From NCBI GenBank assembly GCA_025677815.1, contig JAIXMP010000071.1, positions 1-64,000 of the forward strand: a stretch of DNA of 64,000 nucleotides, read 5' to 3'. The notes under the pieces are model-generated. The model did no database searches and was not told where the DNA came from. It worked only from the letters and a program-made list of their open reading frames with translations. Position numbers and translations under genes: made by a program. This stretch comes from Phascolomyces articulosus (Eukaryota > Mucoromycota > Mucoromycetes > Mucorales > Lichtheimiaceae). This document shows, one piece after another, positions 50,160-56,787 of this stretch (position 1 is its first letter; the number at the start of each line of letters is the position of its first letter).

Positions 50160-50167
50160 TTTAAGTT
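50160..50167. repeat. Left target-site duplication of the MULE
   Basis: TTTAAGTT directly precedes the left inverted repeat and recurs directly after the right one at 56780-56787. Eight bases fits the 8-11 bp typical of Mutator-like elements. Confidence 0.9.
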
Positions 50168-50344
50168 GAGAATTACTACACGCGTAGGCTTCATTCGAAG
50201 TCAGATAGGTTATTATTCGAAGCCAGACTACACGCGTAGGTTACACACCAGTCATCTTAGGACCAACCTACGTGCAACCTACGCGTGTAGTCTGACTTCA
50301 AATACTATACAACTTGTGCGACCTGTCATACTACATGCGTGGTC
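50168..50344 (+). repeat. Left terminal inverted repeat of the MULE
   Basis: 177 bp matching the reverse complement of 56624-56779 with few substitutions and one 21-bp insertion near 50190-50210. It contains three copies of a CTACACGCGTAGG-type unit, some followed by TCTGACTTCRAAT, in both orientations. These are likely transposase-binding sites, since ACGCGT is itself palindromic. Confidence 0.85.
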
Positions 50345-51580
50345 AGACTCCAGTTTAATAAATGATAAAGAAAAAAAAAACCCTTATAATGCAAATCTGA
50401 TTTACCTCATACATTGTTACATAAATTTGTGAAAATCAATAAATTACACAACGGGCACTTCTATTTTAAAATATCATAATGACATAGTGTTTTATCTAGT
50501 AGGAACATTTGCATAACACAATATTATTAGAGGAATGATCAACATTTTCATTAAATTACACATCTTATACATCTACATATGAACAGTTGCTAGTGATAAT
50601 CAATCAAACACTGATGTCGATTACTATTATTATGGAAATTCCATGAATGCACATATAGATCATTTATATTGCGATATAATTATGTTATTGTCAAGGAAGC
50701 ACATATATACAGATCATTAAAATATACATAACCTTGCATAATTGGGATGGTATATACAACTCTATCAAGATCTTAAAATTATACAGTTTTTAAATAAAAT
50801 GAGTACAAGCTATAATAGTTACTTACTGATAGTAATGCTTATTATAGATATTAATATGTTAACTCACATATATAATGAAACAAAACAGTTGTAAGCAAAT
50901 GCAGCTTATTAGCTATTATACATATATATATTGATGATGTATAGATTTGTGCTATTTAATGAATTCTTACAAAATATGTTTGTAAGGTATATAAGCGAAG
51001 TAGTAAATATATGGTGCCTGTAAAACATTGCTCAGCACACAAATTTGCTAACATATAATGGAGGTTGATGGTCGACATTCCCATTAATATGTTTTTTTTT
51101 TGGTCTCTATATACAATCTCATGCTTAATCGTGCATATGATTTGTCATCTTTAGTACTCCATAGATACACATGTCAATCAACAAAATATATGTATAATTT
51201 TATGCCGTGTTCATAATCTGCATTTCGATTTTAAACATTTTTTTTCTAACATTATATACAACCACATGTTCGGCTAGCATGTGCATGATATAATATTCTA
51301 AATATTACTTGGTCACATATGTTGTTGATCATTGACTTTATGGGCTACCTATTATTGCAATTATGCACAGCATGATATGATATACACGGTGCATCTCATT
51401 TAAAGCAGATCAGCACTTGAATATGATTAATACTTTAGTCAAGTAATACTTGGTCTTACAGGAACAACTTTTTTACGTATTTAAGTCTTGATTTGATGAG
51501 TATATAAATAAAGTTGGTTGAAACATCAAAAAATATTATCACTACATTTTTTTTGTTATAACTACAACATTACCTATATC
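50345..51580. promoter_or_regulatory. Element-internal 5' region of the MULE gene
   Basis: 1.24 kb of AT-rich non-coding DNA between the left repeat and the first ATG. TATAAATAAA at 51502-51511, 70 bp before the start codon, is a plausible TATA element. No ORF of note. Confidence 0.4.
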
Positions 51581-54500
51581 ATGTCATTATTATTTCCACA
51601 ATCTCTTGAAGATATCCTTAACAAGACGGATTACAAAACCAAAGATGAAGCATTCGCAATTGTTCAGAACTACGCGGCCAGAGTAGGCTTTTCCGTCATT
51701 AAGTCTAATAGTGGTATTTCTTATTGTACCTTTGAATGCTGCCATGCTGGATTACCACGAGCGGGCTCAAGTAATAAGGATGAAGGTAAAAGAAATAAAG
51801 GAAAATGTGTCATATGAAGGAAATATTTTTATTTCTATTCAAATAAACAGATATTTTTTGTGTTAGCACTATATTAAATATGCTGTTTACATCTTATATA
51901 GATCCTACAGTGAAGACATACAAAGATAAAAACGGTATTGAGAAAAAAAAGCCGACTCGTAAATCAAGAAAGACTGGCTGTACTTGGAAAATCAATATTT
52001 CATGCAGCGATACCAATAACAACCGATGGAAATTTTCAACAATGTTATCTGACATCCCAGAGCATAACCATAATATGAGCATGAATCCTTTGATATACCA
52101 TGAGCACCGTGATAAAGATGTATACGAACGCCAAAATATTATTAGTCAACTAGAAGCAGGTATTGCCCCAGGACAGATTATGAAGCAACAACGTGTGAAT
52201 CTGCCACCACCATCAGTAGCAACAGCACTACCAACTCAAATTCCAGGACTTGCTTCTCAATCTTTCTTTGGACAACCATTACCATATCCACCTACTCCAG
52301 TTATTACACCTATCTATGTTGCTGCACCAATGTATGTCACTGCACCAACAACAATAACTCAACAACCAAGATATATAGGTCACCACAATATGATTCCAAA
52401 AGATTTATATAACATTGGGCAAAAAATTCGTAAAAATCAAAATAACCGCGGTAATTATCAAGAAATGTATTTAATTACGACCTTTTTGGAACGACATGGA
52501 TATATATATCGTTATGATACCGACAGCACTAAAAATCTCACCAAGTCTATTTTTACAACACATACAACATGTATTGAAAAGGCACGACGATTTCCTGAAG
52601 TTATTGTGATCGACTGTACATATCGCAGCAATCGAAACATGATGCCCTTACTCAATATTTTAGGTGTCAGCAACTTGGGTGCAGAAAATTACCGTAGTGA
52701 CAAATTACGTTCATATTATATTGGAAGTGCTGTGATGTCAGACGAAAAAGCATTATCGTATGATTGGGTGGTTGAAAAATTGGCGCAAGTCGTCTGGGCT
52801 CCTGAAAGCGGTTCTACACCAAAGCTTTTTGTTACTGATGGTGATAGTGCATTAGCAAGTTCATTGCATAAACATTTTCCTGGTGTTCCGCATATCTTGT
52901 GTGTATGGCATATCAAGAAAAATTTTTGCAAGAAGGTGATGCAGCATGTAGATCGAGAAGAGTTGAAGGAGGAATACGAAGCAATTATTGAAACAATCGA
53001 CAGGTTGTTATGGTCAAGAACAATCGATAAATTTGAAGATGCTATCGGTGACTATAAGAAAGAAGTAAAAAGAACATGTGGTAGTAATAAAGTTGGGGGA
53101 GCGGATATCATTAGATATCTTGAAGAAGAGTAAGTAAAAAAAAAAAGTATAATATACCTTTATTTGATTATATAACACAGTAGTGATAGTTAAAAAAATG
53201 GTGTTTAACATATTAATCTAAATCTACATTTGACATTTTATTATAGAATGCTTCCATTCAAAGAACGCTGGGCTGGTCCCTGGGTAGAGTCTTACATCCA
53301 TTTAGGTGCAAGATCCACGCAGAGAGCTGAAGGTTTTCATGCGAATCTAAAGAAAATAATTGATCGCCCTGGTCGGATGCTACATACATTTGAAAGTATA
53401 CATGAATACCTTAATAATGCTGTAAGTAATAAATAAAATTAAGAAAAAGTGTAGATATTTCAAAAGAATAGTCATATAACCTTTCAGAGTACTCTAATAC
53501 ATGAATAATACTATATAAATTTATTACAATTTATAGGATTTTAAAGAAGATATACAACAGAATCGCGAATGTCAACTTACGTGGATAATCGAAGATAAAG
53601 CCACACCAAATGATAACCGTCTCAGGAAACAGATTGGACACCTACAAGGTACCATATGCCACTTTGCTCTATACAAGACATTGGGAGAGATTCAAGCTTC
53701 TCGGTACATGAATGAAGACATGTTGCTGGAATGTGGTATATTTTGCGAAGCAAAAACGAATTATAACTTACCTTGTCGTCATGTGTTATACCAATTCTTG
53801 GATAAACCTCTGGACCCTGAATTATATCATGAACGATGGTGGCTAACACAACCGACAGGTAATAAATTTTAAATGACAGTTTATTATGTACTCTATTTTT
53901 TTTTAAAAAAAAAACAGAACTATTTAGACTAATTTTATTTTTCTGGTTGATGTATATGATATAATAGACAATATCCTCAAGGGATCACTTACTGAAGATA
54001 TAGGAAATATTGATACTATTGCTGGCACTGATGATGATCTACAAACATTTAATCGGTATCAAGAAATGAAAGAAAGAATTGTTACAACATACATGTCATG
54101 TCAAAATAACCAACAGCGTCAAGATTTAATTACAGCAGTTAATTCTGCATTGAAAAAATTCTCCCCTGTTCCTGTTGAAAACCTTGTTTTACCCAAATCT
54201 GTCAAAACTAAAGGCCGTCCTCCAAAAAAATCGATTGGTTCAAGAATACCTTCGGGCTGGGAACAACTTGAGGAAGAAGCAAAGGAGAAACAGAAGCTTA
54301 AAGAAAAAGAAGCCAAGCAATTGAAAGAAAAGAAACCCCTTTCACCTTCAAACAAACCTCTCATCCCCCATCGAAACAAGCGACCGAAGAAGGATGAACC
54401 AAATATGAATGATGAACTACTCAAGAATGATAAGAGTACAATGTAAGTAAACAAAATATATAAATAATTACTATCAAGATACGAAATATAAATTGATTAT

Positions 54501-56208
54501 ATAATATATATTTGTATAACTAATAATATTTATAATATTCAATATATATATATTTCTACAACTTTAGCATTTTACACCGAGATATTCCTTTGGAAAACAC
54601 AATTGAAGCAGTCGAAATTATAGATGATGGATGGTGTGGCTTTCGTACTTTAGCTTACATTATTCACAAGGACCAAGACAAGTATTTGGATATTAAGGAA
54701 AAAATGTATTCATATGTCAAGGAAAATGAAGACCTCTGTTATACGTATGTTTGCCAAGGACATGCTACTGTATTTAATGACTTGCTTAAACGGTTGGCAT
54801 ATGGTATTGTACCTAGGTTACGAACTCGCTCTGTCTGCTACAAGGAATATTGGTTTGATGCAGCTCAAGATGCTCAAATTGCAGCAAACGCTTTCAGTAT
54901 ACCTATCGCTGTTTATTCTGATGGTAGTGTTCATGAATCAATACTTTATCTTCCATATGACTTACCTGATGGACAGCCCTTACCAGAAATTATGCATTTT
55001 GTTAATGGCAATCACTTTCAAACCATCAAGACAAAACGGTTTCCACGAATGACTTGGCCTCCTATTCTCCCTCAACCCATGGCAATCTGGGAATCTCGTG
55101 GTCGGGATCAAAGTGAATACAAGGCAGCTTGGAAGTACATACATAGAAAGAAGTATCCCAAAATTACAAGCACAAATGGATCTTCCAAGCAACCGATTGT
55201 TATAGAAGATGATGATGACAAAGCCTCTAGTAAAGATAAAGTTTTGGAAGAACTAAGAGAAAAGTTAAAGACAATTGAAGCCATACCAGTTGAACGAGGT
55301 ACGTACATTATAATAGAGTAAAAAAAATACCAAAGCATAACCTTTTTGAATTATTTTTTAATCTTTAATATTTATAATATTTTACCGTAAATATGAATAG
55401 TCATATATCCATGCCCGTTCTGTGGAACTTCACTTGGTGACCCTATGCCAGAGGCTATCAAGAAAGTGTACGACGAATACGTCCAAAAAAATGAACAGTA
55501 TCGGAAGGATAGAGAGAAGGAAGCTGTAGATAAAGATACCCGATTTATTCAAATTCGCACAATAACTCGAGACCTACAATTGACGTTCCAGGAACAAATG
55601 AATTTTTGCCAAGTCCATAAGATTGAATTGATTTACAAGCCAGAGGCTATTGAAAAAGGCTATCCACAAGATATAAACTTCAGGGCATTGCCAGAGCGAA
55701 TCTTGCCACATCTGGAAACACTTGTTGAAATTGCCAAAGGAAAGCTTTACAGTCCTTTTCGTGATAATGAGGAAGCCTTTTTTAAGGAAAATAAAAGATT
55801 CGTAAAAAGAAGTGTCATGGCAAGAATGTCTCGTATGGAAATGTATACGGTAATTATATTTGATATTGTTATAAGTACTACTTTCTCTAGCTTGTTTTAT
55901 ATATATAAATTAATGTAACAATGTTATAATTTTTTTAGAGCGGATATTATGGAATACGAGGTAGAGATGTTATGTTACGAGTCCTACAACGTGAGTTACT
56001 CTTTACAAAGAAGATAGCAAGTAAAGATACAAAACCATTGGACGAAATCACATTCATACAGACTATCCTTGTACCCGAATGTAGTATTCTCCTAATCCAG
56101 CAAGATTTGGATATATCATATTCTGAAGCATATGAAATCCTAATTGGCAGTCATAAGTATGGCAATTATACATATAATGATGTTGTGGATGAGGACTATG
56201 ATGATTAA
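51581..56208 (+). CDS. MULE transposase fused to OTU protease and RTC4-like domain
   Basis: Eight exons (51581-51785, 51902-53129, 53247-53421, 53537-53858, 53968-54442, 54568-55298, 55401-55849, 55939-56208) join in phase to 1,284 residues. Domains in order are as follows. A FAR1-like DNA-binding region (about 10-135) has CTFECC, GCTWKI and EHNHNM. A MULE DDE core follows, with candidate catalytic Asp306 (IDCTYRSN), Asp381 (VTDGDSA) and Glu506 (RAEGFH), plus HILCVWHIKKNFCKK. A SWIM zinc finger (602-618, CGIFCEAKTNYNLPCRH) precedes a Lys-rich linker with GRPPKK. An OTU cysteine protease domain (about 815-960) has DDGWCGFR (Cys825) and FVNGNHFQ (His951). A C-terminal RTC4-like domain (about 1046-1284) has CPFCG, FCQVH, SGYYGIRGRDVML, FIQTILVPECSILLIQQD and a DEDYDD end. 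It should catalyse cut-and-paste transposition; OTU domains remove ubiquitin-like modifiers. The role of the RTC4-like part is unknown. Confidence 0.88.
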
Positions 56209-56623
56209 AATGATGCATCCTTGAGTAATATCATAGTAATTATAATAAGATTATAATTATTTTCTCTCTTTCTTTCCCACCTCTCTTCCCATTTCTTCTT
56301 CTTCTTTTTTTTTATTACTTTTTCTCTTTTCGATATTTCTTCCATTTTTTCTTCTCTTTATATCTGTCACCAATCCCATTAGTACTATTTTATTTTTAAT
56401 GATGTACATTGACATCTTTTTATATGTAATGGAAAAACTTACAATATATAAATATTCTTTAAAAAAAATACTTTTATGTATCTTTTTCTTCTTTTATGTA
56501 GTTAAATGATCGTTATTTTTGATATTTATTTTGTATTAGTTTTCGTTGCAACTATATATCTTCTAATATTTCTGACTTAATTGTAAATGGGAGAGACAAC
56601 ATACACAGTAAGATTGAGAGTGG
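56209..56623. terminator. MULE gene 3' region
   Basis: 415 bp of pyrimidine-rich sequence (TTCTTCTTTTTT blocks, 56265-56365) and AT-rich sequence with AATATATAAATATTC near 56443-56457. It presumably holds polyadenylation signals of the transposase transcript. Confidence 0.4.
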
Positions 56624-56779
56624 GACCATGCGTGTAGTATGACAGGTGGCACAAGTTGTATAATATTTGAAGTCAGACTACACGCGTAGGTTGCACATAG
56701 GTTGGTCCTAAGATGACTAGTATGTAACCTACGCGTGTAGTCTGACTTCGAATAATAACCTACGCGTGTAGTAATTCTC
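56624..56779 (-). repeat. Right terminal inverted repeat of the MULE
   Basis: 156 bp, reverse complement of the left repeat without the 21-bp insertion. It carries the same ACGCGT-centred subrepeats (three full copies). Confidence 0.87.
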
Positions 56780-56787
56780 TTTAAGTT
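56780..56787. repeat. Right target-site duplication of the MULE
   Basis: TTTAAGTT, exact copy of 50160-50167. Confidence 0.9.

Follow-up and report, generated by a model that had tools for sequence, protein, structure and literature searches.

The window analyzed here is a 64,000-nucleotide stretch of Phascolomyces articulosus DNA (contig JAIXMP010000071.1, positions 1 to 64,000, assembly GCA_025677815.1), and the element it carries is, judging from its ends and its gene, a structurally intact, autonomous-type Mutator-like DNA transposon (MULE) of about 6.6 kb. The best explanation of our results as a whole, which we consider likely, is an intact MULE with one eight-exon gene, encoding a single transposase with an OTU protease and an RTC4 module captured from the host. 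The sequence-only reading had placed the feature at 51581-56208, which corresponds to the gene; the transposon around it is larger, extending from 50168 to 56779 and bounded by terminal inverted repeats (TIRs) and a target site duplication (TSD). The 8-bp sequence TTTAAGTT is found on both flanks (left 50160-50167, right 56780-56787; 8/8 identical), a length within the 8-11 bp given for MULEs in the table of PMC6446971. Both element ends start with GAGAATTACTACACGCGTAGG. The left TIR (50168-50355, plus strand) and the right TIR (56618-56779, minus strand) are 160-190 bp long, with inverted arms of 145 nt (50206-50350 and 56618-56762) that are 93% complementary, and each element end contains three exact copies of ACTACACGCGTAGG, which is absent elsewhere in the window.

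In-genome searches covered the P. articulosus assembly (47.4 Mb, 110 contigs); relatives are named below by contig. The copy on C71 (12516-19121) is 99.9% identical to the window element over 6,612 bp within unrelated flanks, differing by one substitution and by the loss of six bases, spread over five places of which one lies in exon 6 and one in exon 7; these differences could be assembly errors. C35 is 97.4% identical and has its own perfect TSD, TATTTAAA (8/8), together with two stops in the aligned residues, broken frames and the change D381G, while C68 (95% identical) has 19 stops and the TSD TATTTAAA/TATTCAAA (7/8). The more distant C46 (about 65% protein identity) has one stop, and its exon 8 lies about 4.9 kb out of place; in C78 (about 45% identity) all eight exons are collinear, with 8 stops. 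Of the six full or nearly full copies, only that of the window can be spliced to an open frame in which every active-site residue is present.

As the sequence-only reading had predicted, the eight exons, all on the plus strand, join in phase to a spliced sequence of 3,855 nt that encodes 1,284 residues and a stop codon, with no internal stops. All seven introns are of the GT-AG type and 89-125 bp long. Exon 1 (51581-51785, residues 1-68) contains the start codon and the beginning of a FAR1-like region. Exon 2 (51902-53129, residues 69-477) continues with the rest of this region, a linker and the MULE core with Asp-306 and Asp-381, and exon 3 (53247-53421, residues 478-536) encodes the part of the core with Glu-506. 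A SWIM-like Cys/His cluster, CGIFCEAKTNYNLPCRH, starts at residue 602 in exon 4 (53537-53858), followed in exon 5 (53968-54442) by a Lys-rich linker with the motif KGRPPKK at residue 725, which we take to be AT-hook-like. The OTU-type cysteine protease with Asp-822, Cys-825 and His-951 occupies exon 6 (54568-55298, residues 802-1045). Exon 7 (55401-55849) encodes a zinc-like RTC4 part (CPFC at residue 1050, FCQVH at residue 1114) and the start of the RTC4 domain, and exon 8 (55939-56208) the core of the RTC4-like domain and the stop codon. The five predicted catalytic residues Asp-306, Asp-381, Glu-506, Cys-825 and His-951 were all found at their expected positions.

The predicted domain list stood in part. 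Two families pass the Pfam cut-offs: MULE (PF10551) at residues 302-409 (E = 3.6e-20, 72.7 bits, cut-off 27.6) and RTC4 (PF14474) at residues 1159-1272 (E = 5.1e-18, 65.8 bits, cut-off 23.7). FAR1 (PF03101) at residues 29-127 lies just below its cut-off of 28.1 (E = 1.1e-5, 26.6 bits), and neither SWIM nor OTU (PF02338) is among the eight families returned for the window protein at E-values up to 10. The profile check set beforehand thus passes for RTC4 and fails for OTU in the window copy, where the assignment draws on other profiles (see below). The SWIM motif has the form CxCx(n)CxH. The cysteine cluster of exon 4 has the spacing C-x3-C-x9-C-x-H, its final His is replaced by Tyr in C46 and C78, and the test for SWIM failed; we therefore call it SWIM-like. 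All three residues of the DDE triad are present in the window and kept in C46 and C78; Asp-381 is altered in C35 and C68, and Glu-506 is kept in C35 as well but is Lys in the decayed C68. The motif KGRPPKK is retained as KGRPxKK in C68, C13, C46 and C78 and altered in C35. For the RTC4 module, none of 177,635 PDB sequences matched at E-values up to 1. A chance reading frame or false splicing is ruled out by the Pfam E-values and the conserved splice sites.

The OTU-type domain

Because Pfam alone failed for OTU, we searched solved structures in the PDB with a profile built from five in-genome sequences (window, C46, C78, C24 and C23). The best matches are two structures of OTUD5/DUBA (3tmo and 3pfy, E = 9.2e-9 and 1.6e-8), and OTUD1 and OTUD3 follow at 2.3e-4 and 0.63. 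The 12 sequences up to E = 1 also include three labelled RNA-dependent RNA polymerase (0.0059-0.34) and five of other kinds (0.33-0.45). In the comparison with OTUD5, the DGxC motif is aligned and the region of the final His falls in a weak second stretch, whereas significant similarity is limited to profile positions 3-51 of 146, around DGxC, the remainder being weak. Asp-822, Cys-825 and His-951 are present in all seven relatives that align there (C35, C68, C13, C46, C78, C24 and C23), although C68 and C13 carry a stop at residue 824. The best-supported reading of exon 6 is therefore that of an OTU domain overlooked by the Pfam model, and we consider it probable that the domain is an active deubiquitinase.

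The genome contains 29 MULE matches (two of them, both on C38, represent one place), and in 14 of the 29 an OTU match lies downstream on the same strand. Some of these cases are tentative, namely those on C40, C100, C19 (two), C43 and C32, whose matches are weak (five with E-values from 5e-5 to 6e-4, the sixth with 6.4e-4). RTC4 matches number 13, of which five (C80, C71, C35, C46 and C78) follow MULE and OTU and one (C13) follows OTU; those on C45 and C70 are truncated pieces within the DNA examined, that on C15 is a stand-alone gene, and those on C32, C67, C44 and C1 were left outside these classes. The RTC4 exon of C68 is broken, was located by tblastn and stands outside the 13. C64 was dropped as evidence for the full order. 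Five of the six profiles included C64 itself, so that their scores for it were circular. With C64 left out of the profiles, its MULE (8.8e-55), OTU (5.9e-40), SWIM-like (4.4e-10) and FAR1-like (7.9e-8) parts are recovered, whereas the zinc part (0.75) and the RTC4 part (0.67) do not hold (Pfam RTC4 13 bits, whole-library E = 0.11), and an RTC4 tail behind FAR1-MULE-SWIM-like-OTU is only possible there. In addition, C24 (16500-20500) and C23 (15000-18800) have a related OTU frame after a different frame of 542 residues, which has no significant Pfam match; RTC4 was not found at these two places. By eye, the motifs DVTYKA and NAVESFH of the 542-residue frame resemble MULE motifs.

Probable source of the RTC4 module

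The best RTC4 match of the genome is a stand-alone gene on C15 that encodes 471 amino acids (PF14474, E = 1.9e-22, 80.1 bits). Aligned pairwise, its protein and the transposon module agree at 79 of 240 residues (33% identity, E = 1e-36 for the two sequences alone). The two share the motifs CPFC, FCxxH, GYYGxxG and LVPE of fungal RTC4 (PF14474, with yeast Rtc4), and both introns of the C15 gene are common to the transposon. Intron A equals transposon intron 6, in phase 1 with the split codon four residues before CPFC (the aligner, lacking upstream homology, put a two-column gap between the intron and CPFC, which leaves the residue count unchanged). Intron B equals transposon intron 7, in phase 0, and the two occupy one alignment column immediately ahead of xGYYG. 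We estimate the probability that two introns coincide by chance within about 720 coding bases at roughly 10^-5 or below. Because both introns are shared in position and phase, the RTC4 module was probably acquired as genomic DNA; a host origin of the module is very likely from these comparisons, and its acquisition most likely predates the split of the window and C46/C78 lineages. The arrangement differs, in that the protein of the stand-alone C15 gene has a long N-terminus of low complexity, whereas the transposon module is fused behind MULE and OTU.

Shared introns alone give no direction, and the C15 gene could also descend from the transposon by domestication. We consider this unlikely. 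The C15 protein is nearer to the Pfam consensus than the transposon module (80.1 vs. 65.8 bits), the family profiles find neither MULE nor OTU in the 3.2 kb upstream of the C15 gene, and RTC4 is a general fungal gene.

The predicted fused protein and its constraint

The prediction that transposase, OTU and RTC4 parts form a single fusion is well supported by the in-phase exons, the conserved introns, the lack of an upstream Met, the same order in the approximately 45% identical relative and the joining of MULE and OTU in predicted proteins of two other fungi. We are nearly certain, as far as a gene model allows, that the predicted product is one fused protein. In the OTU frame there is no Met from the preceding in-frame stop to DGWC in any of the five readable copies (window, C71, C35, C46 and C78). 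The zinc frame has none ahead of CPFC/CLFC in any of six (window, C35, C68, C13, C46 and C78); C71 is outside this count, as its sole match there is an unrelated out-of-frame CLFC. Because no Met lies upstream in frame, an OTU protease started from its own AUG would be without the catalytic Cys, and such a separately started protease appears unlikely.

The splice sites are retained to different degrees. C35 has the sites of all seven introns at the window positions, in C68 donor and acceptor persist for six introns and the acceptor for intron 6, and C13 keeps the sites of introns 4-7, with the donor of intron 6 two bases off its expected place. Acceptors 2, 3, 5, 6 and 7 and donors 3 and 4 are kept exactly in C46, where donors 2 and 5 are shifted by about two bases. 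Donors 3, 4 and 7 and acceptors 3, 5 and 7 are kept in C78, as are donor 7 and acceptors 6 and 7 in C70.

MuDR carries two genes, mudrA and mudrB. The element could likewise carry two genes, one for a MULE transposase that stops near 54446 and another for an OTU-RTC4 protein, and with intron 5 retained the frame of exon 5 does meet a stop at 54444-54446. Nevertheless, this arrangement is very unlikely. Besides the missing Met before Cys-825 and before CPFC/CLFC in every readable copy, the sites of introns 5 and 6 are conserved in C35 and C13 (allowing for the two-base shift of donor 6), and C46 keeps both acceptors. Moreover, MULE-type and OTU parts share one predicted protein in two database entries of Circinella minor and one of Zychaea mexicana, as judged with our own profiles; for the Zychaea protein Pfam lists neither MULE nor OTU.

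Comparison of the window copy with C46 gives a dN/dS of 0.20 over 1,198 codons. By part, the ratio is 0.22 for FAR1, 0.36 for the first linker, 0.18 for MULE, 0.11 for the SWIM-like part, 0.21 for the second linker, 0.25 for OTU, 0.48 for the acidic linker (31 codons) and 0.18 for the zinc part. From this comparison, the sole informative one, the OTU and RTC4 parts are constrained about like the transposase core, and the added pieces appear to be kept under selection. The overall ratios to the near copies (C35 0.48, C68 0.55, C13 0.49) match the expectation for copies that decay once inserted. Acquisition of host gene pieces by MULEs is known (PMC6446971; PMC6431247), but that the OTU and RTC4 parts are functionless, passively captured cargo in the manner of Pack-MULEs is highly improbable in view of a dN/dS of about 0.2 in the OTU and zinc parts across the distance of about 65% identity, the triad retained in relatives at 35-45% identity, the order kept in C78 and, with exon 8 displaced, in C46, and the OTU matches downstream of 14 of the 29 MULE matches.

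Several results weigh against an intact MULE with an OTU protease and a host-derived RTC4 module. The Pfam OTU model matches neither the window protein nor its isolated OTU piece at E-values up to 10, stays below its cut-off of 23.3 bits in all four in-genome relatives scanned (15.2-21.5 bits; C46 0.018, C78 3.5e-4, C24 0.032, C64 5.2e-4) and is unlisted for all three Circinella and Zychaea proteins. The flanks of C71 have no recognizable TSD; therefore at least one near-identical copy did not arise by a textbook insertion, or its TSD has since been lost. The direction of capture, probably from the host into the transposon, is taken from the status of RTC4 as an ordinary gene of fungi, not from a tree. 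C46 is the sole relative at a useful distance for dN/dS, and even in this comparison synonymous change is saturated in the RTC4 core (pN 0.25, pS 0.86); against C78 it is saturated overall. Finally, the protein database searches (1/8,000 scored candidates; 0/7,537 for the OTU-RTC4 part; 3/7,994) yielded no relative that carries RTC4, and the three distinct matches end within or just after OTU; searching of this kind is insensitive at such a distance, the OTU-RTC4 search having missed a protein matched by another of the searches.

The decay of some copies is strongly biased. From the window (50168-56100, three aligned parts) to the decayed copy on C68 (102000-109200) we counted 233 C-to-T/G-to-A changes, 14 reverse changes and 23 transversions, and by context the rate of the C-to-T/G-to-A changes is 103/252 for CpG, 115/793 for CpA, 7/348 for CpC and 8/590 for CpT. 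With the window taken as ancestor, this looks like repeat-induced point mutation (RIP) or methylation-driven decay; RIP is typical of Pezizomycotina. The same bias is seen from C24 to C23 (82 vs. 14 reverse) and from C64 to C95 (102 vs. 24), with little of it in C35 (45 vs. 39) and C13 (59 vs. 44). Inverted TIR matches also occur in pairs, separated by 0.6-1.8 kb, at C15:999702-1000384, C57:103264-103933, C28:406994-407605, C45:910905-911830 and C19:1012482-1014239, and these five short loci are probable non-autonomous relatives by their ends. The one on C45 retains part of an RTC4 exon, and no TSD was seen there.

Proposed mechanism and known systems

The sequence establishes the architecture, the element ends, earlier transposition and the constraint. 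In the mechanism that we propose, the FAR1-like region would bind the ACTACACGCGTAGG repeats in the TIRs, and the DDE core would cut and join the element in a cut-and-paste manner. The OTU domain would strip ubiquitin from the transposase or from end-bound host proteins, giving a stable complex, and the RTC4 module would, most likely, dock the transposase to a nuclear partner of the host Rtc4. For OTU and Ulp1 proteases on other transposons, a role in transposition or repair has been suggested in PMC2836005. That the RTC4 module serves for docking to a host partner is an idea that the domain content allows us to put forward tentatively, and with slightly more reserve we suggest that the OTU domain may act on the transposase complex itself. 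Self-protection from turnover by self-deubiquitination, as proposed in the sequence-only reading, is plausible as a hypothesis. We think it rather doubtful that the whole of a more specific scenario applies, in which the RTC4 domain was taken with its introns and fused behind the deubiquitinase, both were selected, and the transposase competes with or mimics the host Rtc4 at DNA ends. If this competition or mimicry were true, the element would be a natural probe for what Rtc4 binds.

Could the RTC4 module steer insertion to telomeres or telomere-like chromatin, as the sequence-only reading proposed? According to PMC6162548, yeast Rtc4 is found in cytosol and nucleus, is genetically tied to telomere maintenance and is repressed in a Zap1-dependent manner in zinc deficiency, but its function is described there as unclear. 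The window copy is flanked by metabolic genes of the host, a galactose-1-phosphate uridylyltransferase (GalT) gene on one side and a gene of the dihydrodipicolinate synthase (DHDPS) family on the other, and the target duplications of the family are merely AT-rich. For the full-length copies, the nearest contig end is about 12 kb away on C71, 38 kb on C80, 25 kb on C68 and 271 kb on C35. Telomere-directed insertion is thus very improbable. Four tandem TTAGGG units have no match in the assembly, so that telomere proximity is not measurable directly, and we draw no conclusion from this.

Because the window copy has an open frame, simple deletions of its OTU and RTC4 domains would allow the role of each to be tested. 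The element also provides an entry point to RTC4, a protein of fungi that owes its name to a telomere link and has no known biochemical role. An RTC4-like module on a transposase is unusual, as the sequence-only reading held: the open-licence literature that we searched contains no paper on an RTC4 transposase or an RTC4-like module and no MULE-OTU-RTC4 protein, which is not proof of absence, and Mutator, transposon and OTU domain come together there only in the Ginger paper (PMC2836005). Transposases with protease tails are a theme already known, and the combination predicted here appears to be new as far as searched.

The MULE-Mucorales group (group 5; PMC6446971, 2019) is similar in that it comprises Mutator-like transposases of Mucoromycota with one open reading frame, for which a SWIM finger is listed. 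Its published table gives a 10-bp TSD, a 40-bp TIR and no further motif, whereas the window element has an 8-bp TSD, TIRs of 160-190 bp and, in addition, the OTU and RTC4 domains; the main text of that paper does not contain the words OTU, protease or telomere. Ginger1, as described in PMC2836005, likewise has an OTU (or Ulp1) protease at the C-terminus of a DDE transposase, but its core is of the Gypsy-integrase type instead of MULE, and an RTC4 module is not among the parts listed there. For Mutator elements the same source records Ulp1, and for Helitrons OTU. The plant MULEs with ULP1 that it cites also carry a protease for ubiquitin-like proteins, of the SUMO-protease type instead of OTU and with RTC4 unmentioned in what that source says of them. 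Proteases of the ubiquitin family thus recur on unrelated transposases, and in the P. articulosus element an RTC4 module, probably of host derivation, accompanies such a protease, with the shared introns as evidence of the module's capture.

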